Virus record (IMG/VR): IMGVR_UViG_3300046799_000096
Coordinates: 1 to 21,755 of that record
From: a virus
DNA: 21,755 nucleotides
Direction: 5' to 3' (one strand)
In this document: one piece after another, positions 7,880 through 21,755 of the stretch
How the letters are laid out: every line of letters starts with the position of its first letter
Numbering within the stretch: position 1 is the first letter of the stretch
The notes under the pieces: model-generated
Told to the model about the DNA's origin: nothing
Seen by the model: only the letters and a program-made list of their open reading frames with translations
Database searches by the model: none
Made by a program: the position numbers and the translations under genes

Positions 7880-9306
7880 GCTGTTAATCCTTGCATTTCC
7901 GCATCCGACAAAAGGCGCGGCCAGTATTGAACCCGCCGCAGATAACCGCTCATTTGCTCGCTGAAAGACGCCGGGACCGTCCCGAACAGCGTGACGCCAT
8001 TTGTCGCCAGCACCGCGTACCCCGTCGCCAATGGCGCCGCCGCGATCGTGCCGCCGTTCAGGCACATCCTGGCGGACCCAGGGGACCACCCGGACGCGAC
8101 TTTCGTAATGGCGTTGGCCGTTACCGTGTTGGCGGTCGCGCAAAAGCCGCCATCATATTGCACCATGACCAACGATGACGCCTCATACATGGGCGACCCA
8201 GCCCCCGCTGCCGTTGGGCCGATGACGCGGCTGTTCTTCCCGGTCATAATGGCGTCAAAGTTCACGAACTCCGCGAACCACGTCCCGCCCGGAGACGCGA
8301 ACCACGGCGACATGTTCGCGGGGGAAATGGTGCAAATATCGACCTGACGCGCCGCCGCACCCGACGTGGTCGGAATATACGACGTTGGGAACGTTCCGAC
8401 CTCGACCTGCTGTCCCCAGACCCACACGCCGTCCACGTTATTGCCGGTAGAAACCGAGCCGCCGATCGTGTTGGTGGCTCCTGGCCGGATGTTACTGACA
8501 TAGGTTCCCGCGCCAGCCGATGACGTGGCATTGATCGAGCAACGATACCAACCGCCACCGATCAGGCGAATCGTCGCCGCCGCTCCGGCACTTTGCGAAT
8601 CGATCGTGCCATTGGACAGATTAAAGGTCGCGGACTGTCCGGTGCCAGTGAACCCGGTGTTGCCCAGTTCCATGTAAATGAAATTCATTCCAACCGGTTT
8701 GGCGTATAGTGAATAAACGTAAGGAGTGCCCGGCGCGCCGCCGAACGTCGTGAAAAACTGATGCACCGCGCTAAACGCACCCGGAATAAGCGCCATCGCG
8801 GTCGCCGCCCCGGATGGGGCGGTTCCGACGTTCTGCGTGATGCCGTCCACAGACCCGCTTGGAACCGAGCCGGCGAGCCAGTTAGTTGAGGGAAACGCGA
8901 TATTCGTCCGCGCCTCCTCGATCAGCAGCCCGCGCGACACACCGCCCGCGTAATCCCAGCGCGGCGTGTTGATCGCGGCGGTTTGCACGATGCCGCTCGC
9001 GTCGGTGTATGTCGCGGTCGAGGCGCGGCTGAACGTGACGCCCGCCGGCATGGTGCCGGAAGACATGAAATTGAGGTCGAGCGTCTTACCAGGAGGACCA
9101 CCGCCAACCGGCGTGCTACCGCCACCGGACTGGGACACCATCTGGCGGCTGAAGTGTTTGCACCAGCCCATCGGGCTGACCGGGCCAATGACCTTGCCGC
9201 AGGAGCGAGGCGGGACGAAGAAGCGGCAGTAGCCGCATTTCTCCCTGCCCCCGGCATCGGTATAGCGCGCGGCGCTTTTGGTGACCCGGTGGACGACGAA
9301 GCTCAT
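7876..9306 (-). CDS. Lectin-like tail fibre with N-terminal four-cysteine HiPIP-like module
   Basis: This 476-aa protein is ATGA-coupled at both ends. Residues 1-52 hold a compact module with Cys24, Cys27, Cys36 and Cys49 (C-x2-C-x8-C-x12-C). It has a Tyr at 15 and the block CGYCRFF ... GPVSPMGWCKHF, which closely follows the high-potential iron-sulfur protein pattern (CxxC ... C ... GWC). A glycine/serine linker (about 57-72) leads to a fibre part: TFSRASTATYTDASGI (91-106), then RGLLIEEARTN (125-135), a pattern common in phage lectin-like fibres. The C-terminal half ends SGYLRRVQYWPRLLSDAEMQGLTA, as in LamG/concanavalin-like domains. Likely role: a virion fibre that binds a surface glycan. 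Whether the module carries a 4Fe-4S cluster, zinc or disulfides cannot be read from sequence. Confidence 0.8.
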   Translation of the reverse strand: MSFVVHRVTKSAARYTDAGGREKCGYCRFFVPPRSCGKVIGPVSPMGWCKHFSRQMVSQSGGGSTPVGGGPPGKTLDLNFMSSGTMPAGVTFSRASTATYTDASGIVQTAAINTPRWDYAGGVSRGLLIEEARTNIAFPSTNWLAGSVPSGSVDGITQNVGTAPSGAATAMALIPGAFSAVHQFFTTFGGAPGTPYVYSLYAKPVGMNFIYMELGNTGFTGTGQSATFNLSNGTIDSQSAGAAATIRLIGGGWYRCSINATSSAGAGTYVSNIRPGATNTIGGSVSTGNNVDGVWVWGQQVEVGTFPTSYIPTTSGAAARQVDICTISPANMSPWFASPGGTWFAEFVNFDAIMTGKNSRVIGPTAAGAGSPMYEASSLVMVQYDGGFCATANTVTANAITKVASGWSPGSARMCLNGGTIAAAPLATGYAVLATNGVTLFGTVPASFSEQMSGYLRRVQYWPRLLSDAEMQGLTA

Positions 9307-9971
9307 CCGAACGATACCAGTTCAGCGCGAAGCGGTGCGCCAGAGTAATTGGATTGCTGGACCCACAGATTTGCCCTGGTCACCACCTGCTGCCACTGGG
9401 CATCCGCCTGCGCCGCGCGATCGTCGTCCAGCTCGAACAACGCGCCGTGCTTGATCACGCCCCAAAGGTAGACCGCGTAAAGCTGTTCCAGGATCGGATT
9501 GGTGTCGGAGGGGAGGAGGAGAGGCTTCGGCCGCGCGTACCACTCCATCAACACCTGTTGCGGCATCCAGGCGGGGTCCGGCGGGTCGGGGAGGACGGGG
9601 TGGGGGAGAAACTCGATACAGTCCCCCGTCAGCCTGTAGGCCGTGCACACCTGCCCAACCGCGCCAACCACGGCGCCTTCCATCCATGCGCTGGAATACG
9701 CCCCGGTCCAGTGCCCACTCCAGGCGTCCTTGAGTTCGAGCAGCTCGCCACTGGTGGCGTCACGGATCGACGCCATCGTGGCGAAGTCAGCCGGTAGGGT
9801 GATGTAGGCGGCGTCGATCGCCTGCGTGCCAGACGTGATCATGCAGCGGGCACGCAGCGTCTCGGCGATCTCCGTTTCCACCATCAGGACCCAGCCGGGA
9901 ATCAGAGAGGCGACGTCTCTCCGATTCAGCCAGTTCTGAACATCATCGACGAGCTGCTGATAAGAGGCCAC
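9303..9971 (-). CDS. Head-tail adaptor protein (SU10 adaptor type)
   Basis: The 222-aa product starts with a GTG at 9971, three bases after the previous TGA, with a weak AAGAAG site upstream. The N-terminus, MASYQQLVDDVQNWLNRRDV then LIPGWVLMVETEIAETLRAR, is the typical helical start of the adaptor family of short-tailed phages (SU10 adaptor, functional counterpart of T7 gp11 and P22 gp4). ITLPADFATMASIRD (about 57-71) and a helical C-terminus (LEQLYAVYLWGVIKHGALFE, then QADAQWQQVVTRAN) fit the same fold. Twelve copies would join the portal to the nozzle. Unusually, the nozzle-like gene is not next to it: about 7 kb of fibre genes lie between them. Confidence 0.8.
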   Translation of the reverse strand: MASYQQLVDDVQNWLNRRDVASLIPGWVLMVETEIAETLRARCMITSGTQAIDAAYITLPADFATMASIRDATSGELLELKDAWSGHWTGAYSSAWMEGAVVGAVGQVCTAYRLTGDCIEFLPHPVLPDPPDPAWMPQQVLMEWYARPKPLLLPSDTNPILEQLYAVYLWGVIKHGALFELDDDRAAQADAQWQQVVTRANLWVQQSNYSGAPLRAELVSFG

Positions 9972-16069: not shown

Positions 16070-16228
16070 TCAGTAGCCGCGGAACAGAAGGAACAGCACG
16101 ACCACCACCAGGACCGTGCCGAGACCAATACCGGGACCGTAATAACCCCCGAATCTATCGTGGGTATACCAGCCACCGCCGAGGCCGAAGATAAGCAACA
16201 GGAGGAGGATGATCAGGATGAAGCTCAT
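16070..16228 (-). CDS. Two-helix small membrane protein (52 aa)
   Basis: The ATG at 16228 overlaps the portal TGA (ATGA), which supports translation. The 52-aa product is MSFILIILLLLLIFGLGGGW at its start, a polar glycine/tyrosine-rich loop (YTHDRFGGYYGPGIG) and a second membrane segment (TVLVVVVLFLLFRG). It resembles the small DUF3309-like membrane peptides found in many proteobacteria and their phages. No role is established. A membrane protein directly behind a portal gene could act in lysis, in membrane contact during infection, or as a virion lipid-interacting peptide; none of these is shown by sequence. Confidence 0.65.
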   Translation of the reverse strand: MSFILIILLLLLIFGLGGGWYTHDRFGGYYGPGIGLGTVLVVVVLFLLFRGY

Positions 16229-18951
16229 TGGGGGCCTCCCGGCGAGGGCAGCGGTGGCCCACCAGGGCCGAACAGCGGCAGACCAGCCGCTCTCGCCGTA
16301 AGCTGGCCGTAAGCTGATGGCATTTTTCCCGTCGCGAGGGACTCGCGGATGGCGTTGGCGGCCTGGGGGTTGATGGGGCCGGCGGGTAGCGTGGGAGGAC
16401 GTTGTTGGGGAGAAGGCATCATGGGCGGCCTCGGCGGCCCGGGGGGCATCATCGGCATGCCCTGGGGGCCTTGAGGGGGTTTGGGCGGTGGCGCGCCGAC
16501 CGCCGGAGGTTGGGGGCTGGTGGGTGGCGGGAGATCGGACAGCAGACCCACCGCCGGGGCGTTCGATTTCATCGCCGCTTTGAACTCGTCGAGCGAGGGG
16601 ACGATCATGCCGGACGTGGTGCCCGCCACCCACGCCTTCACCCACGCGTCGAGGGCGGCGCGGTCCCGCTCGCGATCGTCCTCCAGGAGGAGGGAAGCGC
16701 GTTTGGTCTGCTGATCCGCCCTGGTGTTCTCGATATCGGCGTTGGTCTTCTTGTTCTGCACGTCGGCCAGGATGAGGTCGGTGTTGGGCGGCGGCGGCGG
16801 CGTGGGGGGTGGGGCGAAGTCGGGCGGGAGGGCTTTGAAGTAGGAGCTGATGTCGGCGATGTTCACCGTCTCCAGCATCCTGGCGAGGGTATTGCGATAT
16901 TCCGGCAGGCCGACGAGGGGGTTGGACATGCCGCCCTGCTGGATGATCTGCTCCTGCTTCTGGGCAATGGCGGAGAGCATCTGGAGACGCTCCTGGGGCA
17001 TCCCCTTGCCGCCGACATTGACCGAGGTCTCCCACTGCGTGGCGAGCGCGCGGGGGTCGATCGGGATCCACTTCTGACGGATCCGGATGACATTGGGGCG
17101 GTCCTGCTGGCGGGCCAGCATTTTCAGAAGACCCTTATACAAGGGGGCCAGACCGGTCTCGGCGAGCGTGCGGGCCACCATGTCGAGGCGGTCCTGGGCC
17201 GCGGAGGATTGTTGAGAGACAGCTATGGGCGCTGTTGACTGGAGTTCGTCGACGGTCAGGCCAGACGAGGCCCGCGTGATGCCGGTGCGTGATTCCCGGA
17301 TGGTCTCGAGGACCTGCATGACGGGGAGCGCTTCCTTGCCCATGAACGGCTTGGTCAGCTCCTGCACGGCGCCTTGCTGCGCCACGCGAATGATCGAGCC
17401 AATGGCGGTCTGGCGGGTGTCGGCGAGATTGGCCTGGCCCACGACGACGGCCGTCCTCGGAAACATGCTCTGCCCGAGACTGTCGAGCACGCCGCGCATG
17501 ACGCGGCTCTCGATCCGTTGCAGATCCATCACCATGTCGGCCTGGGACTGGCCGATCACCCTGCCGGGCTCGCGATAAGGGGTGAAACAGGACAGGGGGA
17601 TCTCGTCCGCGCGCTCCCACGAGACGAGGGTCTGGGACGCGCCGAGGAGATGGACGTGCAACAGTTCCGAAACATTATCGCCGTCCGCGTCGCAGCGGAT
17701 CCAACCCTCGACGTGGCGCACGATCGACTGGGACTTATCGTTGGGCGGGCTCCCCGCGACATTATGACCCTGCGCGCCGGAGCGCGCGATGAGCTCGGTC
17801 CGCTGTCTTTGGGTGGTGCCGCGGCCGGAGGAGAGATTGGCGAGGATCTTGTCCTCCGGCAGGCCGGCCTCGATCAGGTCGGAGACGGTACTGTCCTGCA
17901 CGATGAAGAGGGCGGGGGTTTGTTCGACGGACGCGGCCGAGGGGTCGATCCAGACGCATTCGGCGAGGACGTGGGAGACCTGGGGCCACGCTTTCGTGGC
18001 CGATCGGGTGAGCGTGGCGCTCCAGTATTCGGCGGGGGCGCCTTGCTGGAGATACATGCGGCCCTCGGGGGTTTTGGCGAGGGCCTGGGTTTCCGCCGGC
18101 GTCATGGGGCGGCGGACGATGCGGGAGGCTTCGATACCGGGCTCGGAGAGCAGCATCTGGAGTTGGGGAAGAAGCAGACCGTGGGCGACCTCGGTCCTGG
18201 TGTGCTTCAGGGACCCCCAGTGCCACCTGACCCAGCCGGCCTTGCGGGTCAGGGCGTCGAGCAGGGCGTCGTGCAGGATCGTCCAGCCGGGATTGGCGGT
18301 GAACAGCGCCCAGCGCGCGTAGTCCGTCGCCTGTCTGGCCAGCGCGGTCGCCAGCTGGTCGTCGGCGGCGGTGACGTGATCGGAGGAGAGGGGTTGGAAG
18401 GAAACCGGGTCCTCCACGCCGGTGAAGATGCGCAGCATGGACGGCAGCGTCTGGCGGATGGTGTCGCGCACGACGGTCAGGGTGATGTTGCTGCGGCCCT
18501 CGATCTTCGGGGCGTCGGGCTCACCCGCGTAGTAATTCGAGGCGGTGACGCGCTCGCGCGAGAGATACGCGTCGTAGTTCTGGGCGGCGCGGAAGTAAAA
18601 CCGCGCGACGGCGTTGATCTCCACGTCCGTCTTCCCGAGACGCTCGAAGACGATCTCCTGGGACCAGGGAGAGGCGGTGGGGCGTTGCGTGGGGCGCAGG
18701 CCGGCGGCGTAACGGCGGAGAGGGGCGGGAAGCGCCTGGTCCGCGTCGGGCGGGTCATCGTCATGGGAGGGCGGCAGCAGGAACGCCAGCATCTGGTTGG
18801 AGGGTTGTGAAGATGCGAGAGGGGTGGGCGTCATCCCCTGGGGGATCAGGCCGGGGATCGGCGGCAGAGGGGTGGGGACGTTGGTGTTGGTGATCTGTTG
18901 GGGCGCCAGCAGACCCTGGGACAGAGAGGGGGATGCGAGTGTCTGGCTCAT
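16225..18951 (-). CDS. Portal protein
   Basis: I start at the ATG at 18951 (MSQTLASPSLSQGLLAPQQI), which overlaps the TGA of the HNH gene (ATGA). The 908-aa product has a disordered proline-rich N-terminus (1-95). The portal core follows: a helix with NYYAGEPDAPKIEGRSNITL (139-158), VVRDTIRQTLPSMLRIFTG (160-178), then a crown and clip region including HVEGWIRCDADGDNVSELLH, CFTPYREPGRVIGQSQADMV and a stem helix (QRIESRVMRGVLDSLGQSMF). The last ~200 residues are proline/methionine-rich. The 'EGRS ... lPsmlRIFtG' pattern is that of P22/SU10-like portals. A dodecamer at one vertex forms the DNA channel. Length is at the large end for the family, because of the tails. Confidence 0.93.
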   Translation of the reverse strand: MSQTLASPSLSQGLLAPQQITNTNVPTPLPPIPGLIPQGMTPTPLASSQPSNQMLAFLLPPSHDDDPPDADQALPAPLRRYAAGLRPTQRPTASPWSQEIVFERLGKTDVEINAVARFYFRAAQNYDAYLSRERVTASNYYAGEPDAPKIEGRSNITLTVVRDTIRQTLPSMLRIFTGVEDPVSFQPLSSDHVTAADDQLATALARQATDYARWALFTANPGWTILHDALLDALTRKAGWVRWHWGSLKHTRTEVAHGLLLPQLQMLLSEPGIEASRIVRRPMTPAETQALAKTPEGRMYLQQGAPAEYWSATLTRSATKAWPQVSHVLAECVWIDPSAASVEQTPALFIVQDSTVSDLIEAGLPEDKILANLSSGRGTTQRQRTELIARSGAQGHNVAGSPPNDKSQSIVRHVEGWIRCDADGDNVSELLHVHLLGASQTLVSWERADEIPLSCFTPYREPGRVIGQSQADMVMDLQRIESRVMRGVLDSLGQSMFPRTAVVVGQANLADTRQTAIGSIIRVAQQGAVQELTKPFMGKEALPVMQVLETIRESRTGITRASSGLTVDELQSTAPIAVSQQSSAAQDRLDMVARTLAETGLAPLYKGLLKMLARQQDRPNVIRIRQKWIPIDPRALATQWETSVNVGGKGMPQERLQMLSAIAQKQEQIIQQGGMSNPLVGLPEYRNTLARMLETVNIADISSYFKALPPDFAPPPTPPPPPNTDLILADVQNKKTNADIENTRADQQTKRASLLLEDDRERDRAALDAWVKAWVAGTTSGMIVPSLDEFKAAMKSNAPAVGLLSDLPPPTSPQPPAVGAPPPKPPQGPQGMPMMPPGPPRPPMMPSPQQRPPTLPAGPINPQAANAIRESLATGKMPSAYGQLTARAAGLPLFGPGGPPLPSPGGPQ

Positions 18952-19436
18952 GTCACATAGCTCCAGGCGGTTCCAGCTTTGATCTGACCTATAAGCTGGC
19001 GACAAACTGAAAACCGCGTCGCGAGCACACGGTGTTTTTCACCGGACGCGCGGATATGACGGATATATTCCTCGGTCAGTTTTGAGTTTACATGGTTGAC
19101 GCCGAGGGGTAGCCGCGCACGACCACGACGAAACATATCGGCTTTGTTTTCGCGCCCTGTTCCCCAATACAAATGATCAGGATTCACACACGAAGGCACG
19201 TCACAGTGATGACAAGCCTGAAGATCCAGGGATGGACGCGGCCTGTCGTGAAGCCGTAAGGACACATGCGTCGCCAAAAGTTGTTTAGGGTGCGATCCGC
19301 CAGCACTGATAACGCCGTAGCCCTTGCACAGACCACCGTTCCACAACCAACATCCGCTGTTTGGCTCAGGTAAAACATAAACCCAAAAACGATCTTCCAA
19401 TGTTCCACGAATACCGCGATGACCGACGTTCTTCAT
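18948..19436 (-). CDS. HNH homing-type endonuclease between terminase and portal
   Basis: The start is the ATG at 19436 (GGGGGA upstream), overlapping the TerL TGA. The stop overlaps the portal ATG, so both ends are ATGA. The 162-aa product has LEDRFWVYVLPEPNSGCWLW (13-32), GGLCKGYGVIS (34-44), a first HNH element (ATHVSL, 56-61), ACHHCDVPSCVNPDHLYWGT (75-93; His76/His77, Asn85, His88) and ENKADMFRRGR (96-106). The end (SKLTEEYIRHIRASG, then LATRFSVCRQLIGQIKAGTAW) is the helix-turn-helix-like tail common in phage homing HNH enzymes. HNH proteins beside terminase genes can also take part in packaging cleavage, but the added DNA-binding tail favours homing. Its G+C is about 50-55% by hand count against 65-70% in the portal. 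Confidence 0.88.
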   Translation of the reverse strand: MKNVGHRGIRGTLEDRFWVYVLPEPNSGCWLWNGGLCKGYGVISAGGSHPKQLLATHVSLRLHDRPRPSLDLQACHHCDVPSCVNPDHLYWGTGRENKADMFRRGRARLPLGVNHVNSKLTEEYIRHIRASGEKHRVLATRFSVCRQLIGQIKAGTAWSYVT

Positions 19437-20848
19437 ACCAAATCCCCCTGAGCGAGGCTCATATGTATTGGCGTGCTGGAGTGAAGTCCGCTCGTCATTC
19501 CCGACCCAACACCCATCCCATGCTGAACAAACGTCATACACAAAGCGTCCGCGTAATCACATGAGGGGAGCCCTCTGCTTCGCATCGACTGCTTGCTTTC
19601 AACCAAAAGACGCCCATCACTCAGGAAAGAGTATCTGGGCATCAATAAATCATCTCTTAAACGATCGTGGCGTGGTAATCTGACGTTGCGGCCTCCCAGC
19701 CATTCCTTACACCGAACCCAGAGTTCATCACGTAATCTGGCATACTGGCCCGTGGTGCTCGATGTTTCAGCCACGTTCACACCCAGGACGGGAACATCCA
19801 TCTCATTCAGCCGATCAACGACGCCCGCGCCTATCCCGATGACATCAACGCAAATAAGCGTCGGTTTCACCGTTTGCAGGTCATATTCAGCTTTTATGGC
19901 TCCCGCCAGCATCATCGTATCGAACTGATGCCACGCGCGCGGCATTTCCGTTACCACGTTTCCACGACGTTTTATGAGGACACTAGAATCAGTCCCGAAA
20001 CGAGCCACATCGCAGCCCCAATACTCAGGAGTGGTCATGTCTATCTCGATATCGCGCAGCATGGCGCTATCGACGAGATCAGCGCCGATCAGCGTGTTGT
20101 CGTCGGCGAGCGGAAACTCGCCGAGGACACGAACGCGAAAAGCATTACTGTCCATGCCGTATCTGTTGGCGACCTCGTTCACGAAATCCGACGTAACGCG
20201 TGATGAGGAAGCGGAAGAGACCTTTTGGGTATACCAGCGGTCGCGCTCCATCATGTGGGCGCGGTAGAAGAAGCCGGTACTACGTGTCGCGTTGCCGATC
20301 AGCAGCGTTATCGCGCCGTGAGAGGACATGCTGCCGGAGGCGGCCTCGAAGACCGATTCGGGAATGCCCGACGCCTCGTCGGCGATGAGAAGAACATGGG
20401 CGCTATGGAGCCCGGCCATCGCCTCCGGCGTGTCGGGCCTGCTCGTTCGCGCGGTGACGAAACATTCCTGGTCCGCTTTAAGCGTCACGCGATCAGACCG
20501 AATATCCCACAGATCGCGCCAGCCGGAGGGGAGAATGCTCAACCATTTAATGAACTCGGGCCACAGCGCGTCGAACAACTGGGATGACGATGGCGCGGTG
20601 ATGGCGACCTTGAACGGCGCGCGGGTGCAGATGAACCATACGCACAGCCACGCGGCGAAGCACGTCTTGCCCACGCCATGGCCGGAGCGAATAGCCAGGC
20701 GGGTATGGCCGCGCGCGACCGCGCGCAGTGCCTCCAATTGCCACGGATCCGGCTCCGCGCCGAGAATGTCCCGCACGAACGCGATCGGCGCGCGGGCATG
20801 CTTTTCAATCGCCGCGTGGAACGGGTTGGTCTGGAGGGTGGCACTCAT
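19433..20848 (-). CDS. terL: Terminase large subunit
   Basis: The 471-aa product starts at the ATG at 20848 (MSATLQTNPFHAAIEKHARA); the ribosome site is weak. The ATPase part has Walker A SGHGVGKT (55-62), Walker B LLIADE (153-158, catalytic Glu158) and coupling motif IGNATR (184-189). The nuclease part has GCDVARFGTDSS (278-289, Asp280), LICVDVIGIGAGVVDRL (331-347, Asp335) and SCDYADALCM (429-438, Asp431/Asp434). It pumps DNA into the procapsid through the portal and cuts concatemers. All key residues look intact. The C-terminal half is clearly lower in G+C than the N-terminal half, which is unusual within one gene. Confidence 0.97.
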   Translation of the reverse strand: MSATLQTNPFHAAIEKHARAPIAFVRDILGAEPDPWQLEALRAVARGHTRLAIRSGHGVGKTCFAAWLCVWFICTRAPFKVAITAPSSSQLFDALWPEFIKWLSILPSGWRDLWDIRSDRVTLKADQECFVTARTSRPDTPEAMAGLHSAHVLLIADEASGIPESVFEAASGSMSSHGAITLLIGNATRSTGFFYRAHMMERDRWYTQKVSSASSSRVTSDFVNEVANRYGMDSNAFRVRVLGEFPLADDNTLIGADLVDSAMLRDIEIDMTTPEYWGCDVARFGTDSSVLIKRRGNVVTEMPRAWHQFDTMMLAGAIKAEYDLQTVKPTLICVDVIGIGAGVVDRLNEMDVPVLGVNVAETSSTTGQYARLRDELWVRCKEWLGGRNVRLPRHDRLRDDLLMPRYSFLSDGRLLVESKQSMRSRGLPSCDYADALCMTFVQHGMGVGSGMTSGLHSSTPIHMSLAQGDLV

Positions 20849-21172
20849 TTGTTTAATAAACGTAGCGATAAAAAACGCGCCGTGGCTTTAATATATTGAT
20901 TTATCGTAACGTGTTTTCCACGACCATGTGACAATTTGATATCGTAACGTATTTTCCCCAACTTCCACGACAATTTTGGAGGGGGTGCCGGTGCCATCGC
21001 CCCACGCGCGGGCAGGGGGGCGCCCGCCCGCCCGCGCGCCTGGGCGCGCACACGCGCATACGCGCCCGAACGCGCGATCATGCTGTGTGTGGCTTGATGT
21101 TTGGCATCGGCCACCTGTTCAAACGGACGATTGGTGACACATTCCACGATTGAATGATATGTCATTACACTA
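20849..21172. other. Non-coding region between small- and large-terminase genes
   Basis: This is the longest gap in the window (324 bases). Nearest terL it is AT-rich (20849-20980), with a near-palindrome gtttaataaac and a duplicated 18-bp box. Then comes an extremely GC-rich block (about 20981-21075, runs of gcccgcccgc and gcgcgcctgggcgcgc). Nearest terS it holds an ordinary stretch. An open frame runs through it on the minus strand to an ATGA overlap with terL, but its product looks non-coding. I see no convincing promoter hexamer pair. It is a candidate packaging (pac/cos) or control region. Confidence 0.6.
20902..20957. repeat. Duplicated 18-bp box upstream of terL
   Basis: The sequence tatcgtaacgt(g/a)ttttcc occurs at 20902-20919 and 20940-20957, 38 bases apart (start to start) with one mismatch. 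Each copy is followed by ttccacga and acaattt elements. An inverted, two-mismatch partial copy (acgtagcgataaa) lies at 20860-20872. The spacing of 38 is close to 3.6 helical turns. Confidence 0.75.
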
Positions 21173-21178
21173 TCATTC
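21152..21178. repeat. Inverted repeat at the terS stop codon
   Basis: gaatgata (21152-21159) and tatcattc (21171-21178) form a perfect 8-bp inverted repeat with an 11-base spacer, and the right arm spans the terS TGA. The AT-rich stem and lack of a T-run argue against a strong terminator; an operator or weak 3' hairpin is possible. Confidence 0.5.
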
Positions 21179-21565
21179 CGTTGGGATATCTGTTGATGTG
21201 GACTCAATGGTTTCAATAACCGGCGTTTGCTGATGCTCGATAAGTGATGCGCTGATTGCTCGAGCCGCCACTAAGTGCAGCTCAATCGTTGAGTTGCTAT
21301 TGATATCCATCTCCTGTTTCGGCCGGCCGAAACCACGATCAAGCAGCGCGATGGCGGCGGCCAGACGTAGCTTGTGATCATCGGACGAAAGCAGCTCCAC
21401 GACTACCTTGACGCAGCGCGGACCGTGCTCACGAGCAAGCGCCGCGATATCAACTTCCGCCTTCGGACGCCCGCCCGGATTGCCGGAACGCCCAGGCTTC
21501 CACGATGAATTGCGTAAGCCACCGCGACCTTTCGGCACAATCCGATCGTTGTCTGCTTGTTGCAT
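21173..21565 (-). CDS. DUF5681-type protein, probable terminase small subunit
   Basis: I start at the ATG at 21565 (MQQADNDRIVPKGRGGLRNS); no ribosome site is obvious, and the upstream in-frame stretch contains the terminator, so longer starts are unlikely. The 130-aa product has SWKPGRSGNPGGRPK (21-35), the hallmark of DUF5681, a helix-rich part AALAREHGPRCVKVVVELLS (41-60) and KLRLAAAIALLDRGFGRPKQ (65-84), then an acidic, threonine-rich end. DUF5681 proteins often sit directly before large terminase genes and are taken to be small-terminase-like, recognising the packaging site. Position supports that role. A 9-base tandem near-repeat (tgagacaat/tgagacaca, 21570-21587) lies just upstream of the start. 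Confidence 0.78.
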   Translation of the reverse strand: MQQADNDRIVPKGRGGLRNSSWKPGRSGNPGGRPKAEVDIAALAREHGPRCVKVVVELLSSDDHKLRLAAAIALLDRGFGRPKQEMDINSNSTIELHLVAARAISASLIEHQQTPVIETIESTSTDIPTE

Positions 21566-21665
21566 GCTATGAGACAATTGAGACACAATCCCATGCCGTG
21601 ATACAGTTCTGACATGGCATGATTTGCCTGTTTCGCCAACTATCTCCAGGTGATTGACCAAAAGC

Positions 21666-21691
21666 AAAAGGCCCCTCACGGGGCCTTTTTT
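21666..21691. terminator. Bidirectional rho-independent terminator
   Basis: aaaaggcccc (21666-21675), loop tcac, ggggcctttt (21680-21689) form a perfect 10-bp hairpin followed by T residues on the plus strand; read on the minus strand it ends in TTTTGCTTTT. It begins right at the stop codon of the minus-strand gene entering from the right, so it most likely ends that transcript and isolates the packaging operon. Confidence 0.9.
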
Positions 21692-21755
21692 CATTTGTTC
21701 AGGACATTTCGCCAGCCCCACCACGCCAGCAACACCGCGTCCGCCTCGTCATGCG
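21691..21755 (-). CDS. C-terminal end of a probable RuvC-like nuclease (partial)
   Basis: Only the last 20 codons are in the window: HDEADAVLLAWWGWRNVLNK, ending in TGA at 21693-21691. The 'hDEADAvLLAwWG' ending is typical of RuvC/crossover-junction nuclease-like proteins of phages, where these acidic residues belong to the active site. The start is beyond the right edge. The stop is followed directly by the terminator stem. The assignment rests on a very short stretch. Confidence 0.5.
   Translation of the reverse strand, partial: HDEADAVLLAWWGWRNVLNK

Follow-up and report, generated by a model that had tools for sequence, protein, structure and literature searches.

A DNA-conserved element between the small and large terminase genes of an uncultured phage as a predicted packaging terminus

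The late genes of the window (the whole 21,755-base stretch of DNA analysed here) lie on the minus strand, where terS (stop at 21173) is followed by a 324-nt stretch and then by terL (from 20848). An earlier sequence-only reading had given this gap the same size, and measurement on the sequence bears it out: 324 nt (20849-21172) separate the terS stop from the terL start. That reading described the gap as having two parts, one AT-rich and one GC-rich. The abrupt change in composition is there; the layout has three parts rather than two, with GC contents of 36% (20849-20980), 84% (20981-21078) and 46% (21079-21172) against a window mean of 63.5%. The gap is also not the gene-free stretch for which it was taken, since a minus-strand ORF spans the whole of it and overlaps the start of terL by 4 bases. 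This ORF, the conserved core and the alternating tract listed below were all missing from the earlier description. In their order along the minus strand, the features of the locus are as follows.

21173..21565, minus strand: terS-like gene (DUF5681), likely ATG start at 21565
20845..21165, minus strand: gap ORF, open in 16/16 non-redundant relatives, pN/pS 1.07
21044..21065, no strand: 22-bp strictly alternating purine-pyrimidine tract, the window's longest such run (next 13)
20998..21043, no strand: GC-rich block with C runs and inverted repeats, diversity 0.068 in the part adjoining the core
20982..20997, minus strand: core ATGGCACCGGCACCCC (ATGGCACTGGCACCCC in the majority of relatives), pattern in 26/43 terS-terL loci
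20989..20992, no strand: predicted genome terminus, approximate, by analogy with phage phiM5, whose right repeat end lies just 5' of TGCACCC
20956..20981, no strand: spacer, near-constant in length and variable in sequence, diversity 0.434
20940..20957, minus strand: box 1, a copy of the 18-bp repeat
20902..20919, minus strand: box 2, a copy of the 18-bp repeat
20853..20870, plus strand: weak box-like sequence, inverted, 12/18, p ~0.02
19433..20848, minus strand: terL, PHROG 2 terminase large subunit, E 9e-38

The DUF5681 Pfam match of terS (28.1 bits) is marginally above the cut-off of 27.5. A terS profile built from 16 relatives matched the small terminases 6w7t (E 7e-5) and 7joq (E 0.006) in the PDB, and designed HEAT-like repeat proteins outscored both. 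Pfam matches to SU10-type portal and adaptor proteins at 16225-19005 and 9303-9971 (both minus strand) place the phage near such podoviruses. An ORF at 18948-19541 (minus strand) overlaps the end of terL and weakly matches HNH endonucleases, with a score under the Pfam cut-off. Just upstream of terS, at 21666-21689, there is a terminator-like hairpin that reads in both directions (two found versus 1.2 in shuffles). The window was searched for end repeats and none were found.

Relatives were collected by a TerL search of viral contigs, which yielded 60 loci, and terS could be placed in 43 rows, of which one is the window and one a duplicate record. The core pattern ATGGCAC[CT]G[GT]C[AC]CC was present in 26 of these 43 terS-terL loci and lay exactly 175 nt past the terS stop in 22 of the 26. 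The core-less loci include three (L022, L025 and L027) with another conserved C-rich stretch, and others with gaps down to 32 nt, which leave no room for the core. The C-rich DNA of the three is mutually conserved, is unlike the core and lies within ORFs that otherwise differ. Across 14 loci, the mean pairwise difference was 0.068 in the GC block (26 nt) and 0.051 in the core with its preceding 14 nt. It was 0.434 in the 26 nt after the core, 0.206 in the box and 0.626 beyond the box. Two conserved blocks held at a near-fixed distance across a variable spacer have, at the level of sequence, the look of the binding sites of one complex. These comparisons provide good support for the terS-terL stretch being a cis element that acts at the DNA level, and we consider this very probable. 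A search of the phage collection with the whole gap as DNA returned chance matches only (Acinetobacter phage Ac42 at E 1). A genome scan for hosts found three distant TerL relatives and nothing more. Short tandem repeats were observed around the terL start in L049 and L050.

In seven relatives (L004, L007, L009, L011, L012, L020 and L021) the gap ORF runs on into an FlbD-like domain ahead of terL, and other relatives have a small membrane-protein gene in the same spot, the cassettes being swapped at one point. These protein-coding inserts further downstream have ordinary pN/pS values (0.25 for the FlbD-like domain and 0.31 for the membrane protein, seven loci each); the Pfam FlbD match of the former reaches only E 0.091. 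Such differing cassettes after the element (FlbD-like domain, membrane-protein gene or none) would suit a recombination junction, that is, a conserved linker at which phages swap downstream genes and whose likeness among relatives comes from frequent exchange and not from packaging. Four-gamete conflicts point in the same direction, at 0.61 in the element compared to 0.21 and 0.32 in terL windows and 0.485 in terS. Homogenisation by exchange would not, however, leave a highly variable spacer (0.434) of near-constant length between conserved blocks, and we regard this explanation as unlikely. It overlaps with the reading of the element as a genome terminus, since genome ends can be recombination points.

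The 18-bp box, TATCGTAACGT[GA]TTTTCC, occurs at 20902-20919 and 20940-20957, the copies differing at one base. Its duplication, already seen in the sequence-only reading, is not expected by chance: with up to three mismatches the box was confined to these two sites in the window (0.03 expected), and the best 23-mer direct repeat of the gap had 20/23 matches compared to a maximum of 17 in 60 shuffles. The inverted third copy of that reading is present in weak form, matching at 12/18 positions, a score equalled in 2.1% of shuffles of the AT-rich flank. In 23 of the 26 core-bearing loci the end of the first box lay at +54 or +55 past the core, the exceptions being L017, L023 and L026, and L020 keeps this distance although its pre-core sequence largely differs. 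The 22 closest loci carry one copy (11 loci), two (7) or three (4), at spacings of 38-66 nt. A lack of conservation of the boxes in relatives had been named beforehand among the outcomes that would refute the sequence-only reading; the comparison was run, and the boxes are conserved. In a search of the whole records of 12 relatives, the pattern used fits only one of two box spellings, so that the counts are lower bounds. The box pattern had one outside match, in L063 (a 167,716-base record), which was taken as chance.

Repeated boxes would also suit a regulator, and the position just before terL would suit an element that controls the transcription or translation of terL and the late operon, such as a promoter, an operator or an attenuator. 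A promoter scan of 20700-21755 revealed three sigma-70-like sites, all on the plus strand. The promoter or operator for the late operon that had been proposed from the sequence thus finds no sigma-70-like promoter on the minus strand of this region, with the reservation that the promoter type of the host may differ. Moreover, the examined loci have few or no copies of the box elsewhere, which is unlike the operator of a regulon, and the window has no Rfam match. A control element is, on this evidence, quite improbable.

The gap ORF begins with an ATG at 21163-21165, 7 nt past the terS stop, and its stop codon at 20845-20847 gives a 4-bp overlap with the terL start. The frame is open in 16/16 loci, compared to 0-2 of 16 for each of the remaining five frames, so that at least some relatives are likely to translate through the element; the 16 loci share ancestry and do not count as 16 independent events. 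An overlooked protein gene, and nothing more, would account for the frame being open in all 16 relatives, for the 4-bp overlap to terL in the window and for the extension of the frame into the conserved FlbD-like domain in seven relatives. However, over the first 192 nt of the ORF in the 16 non-redundant loci, pN was 0.141 and pS 0.131, giving a pN/pS of 1.07, and other frames were no worse. A coding signature was sought in all frames on both strands of these loci and none was clear, with ratios of 0.85-1.26. A 42-nt ORF segment around the alternating tract appears coding-like when taken alone (ratio 0.28), and other segments reach up to 2.8-3.1. For the flanking genes in the same 16 loci, pS was 0.583 for terS and 0.371 for terL, whose alignment is long and gappy (2487 columns for 471 codons), so that its total can be trusted more than its window-by-window values. 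The two boxes of the window sit in different reading frames of the gap ORF, and the ORF product has no family match. We therefore consider a protein gene alone very unlikely. These substitution patterns indicate that what is conserved in the element is its DNA and not a protein. A structured RNA, or an iteron-bearing replication origin, is highly improbable: the inverted repeats and GC-richness, and the AT-rich repeats adjoining the GC-rich block, would fit, but the RNAalifold covariation term was -0.48 with a double change in 1 of 47 pairs, an Rfam search of the window gave no match, and none of the window proteins that were searched was recognised as the product of a replication gene.

The alternation of the 22-bp tract is intact at the same place, with its length unchanged, in 15/16 non-redundant relatives and is broken in L004; the tract is missing in the more distant L017, L020, L023 and L026. 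In the 15 loci, all 11 variable columns of the tract are transitions only, compared to 33 of 69 across the remainder of the 199 nt (Fisher p 0.0008), a test that ignores shared ancestry and is favourable because the pattern-breaking locus, L004, is excluded. With L004 added, 10 of 11 columns are transition-only (Fisher p 0.008). Reading the tract as an RNA hairpin was dropped because of A-C mismatches, judged by eye, in several relatives. We tentatively suggest, as a doubtful proposal, that the terminus lies inside a translated frame and that the Z-DNA-prone tract is selected for its alternation and not for particular bases, thereby contributing structurally to recognition or cutting by terminase. 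In that event the tract would offer a packaging site in which selection on DNA shape can be put to the test. Searches of the literature for Z-DNA in connection with terminase, and for C-rich stretches in terminal repeats, yielded nothing on this element, and their results contained no description of an alternating tract in a packaging site.

Few phages have a known packaging site, and such sites can seldom be predicted from sequence. Among isolated phages with annotated ends, the best TerL match was that of Sinorhizobium phage phiM5 (MF074189), at 51% identity. According to its record annotation, phiM5 has a 357-bp direct terminal repeat that starts inside a terS-like gene and has its right end between that gene and terL. 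At this right end a C-rich stretch lies just before TGCACCC, ~35 nt upstream of where terL is annotated to start, and the C-rich element recurs in phiM5's own relatives. Alignment of the phiM5 stretch gave a z of 11.5 with L094 (a Rickettsiales-labelled contig), 6.2 with L020 and 3.7 with L017. The value for the window was modest at 3.5, followed by L004 (2.8), L023 (2.1), L026 (1.7) and L022 (1.2). The pattern C6..G4..ACCC, which was composed after the sequences had been seen, occurs upstream of terL in 15 of 44 phiM5-like loci, compared to 0.15 expected and 0 of 395 control windows; 29 of the 44 are without it, and in 8 there is no C6 run whatever. A profile of the core had no significant match among phiM5 and 13 other sequences (best E in phiM5, 3), and the phiM5 element, searched in the phage collection, found itself as the only significant match. 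The phiM5 ends are not given in the accessible portions of PMC10783043, on alphaproteobacterial phages, or PMC10386132, on phage GT1.

Collectively, these results suggest that the terS-terL stretch acts in cis, as DNA, to mark a genome terminus for packaging. This is the best-supported function and, by sequence comparison and analogy, a probable one. Our confidence in it is moderate, because the profile search did not tie the core to phiM5 and the terminus is predicted. The small terminase would bind the boxes and perhaps the core as well, and the large terminase would cut close to the core. As in phiM5, the cut end may form one boundary of a short direct terminal repeat, which on this model would span mid-terS (~21420) to ~20990. 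Ribosomes may be kept moving into terL by the open frame that crosses the element. A packaging site had been suggested in the sequence-only reading, and the comparisons support it through the DNA-level conservation, the fixed core-box spacing and the phiM5 repeat end, with the terminus itself standing as a prediction. Against a terminus, terS is not conserved as DNA around the second end predicted in its middle (pS 0.59-0.68). None of the assembled relatives ends in the gap, and 5 of 10 near-complete relatives self-close with overlaps of 125-127 bp that are located elsewhere. If the terminus reading is right, a DNA-conserved core and fixed-spacing boxes between terS and terL would allow genome ends to be predicted in a large uncultured group.

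Several known systems can be set beside this predicted terminus. A lambda-type cos consists of a cut site plus repeated terminase-binding boxes, with a GC-rich core adjoining the boxes, near the terminase genes. The window resembles it, in anatomy only, in pairing a core with repeated boxes at a fixed distance, and differs in that its element sits between terS and terL. In the podovirus PaP3, the small terminase binds a defined DNA site, its cos, according to the parts of PMC7672466 and PMC9611059 available to us; the relationship of PaP3 TerS to the TerS of the window rests on a weak profile match. LUZ24 and tf have C and G runs at their repeat boundaries, a parallel that favours the terminus reading, and, unlike the terminus predicted here, their terminal repeats lie upstream of terS and not between the genes, which counts against it. 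The tf ends were mapped by run-off sequencing, primer extension and ligation, as described in the available portion of PMC3517423. In phiM5 the AT-rich stretch is without repeated boxes, and the alternating tract and through-running ORF of the window are not seen in its element. Like the window, phiM5 has its element between a terS-like gene and terL, C-rich and then GCACCC, and the order of its terL, portal, scaffold and capsid genes is similar.
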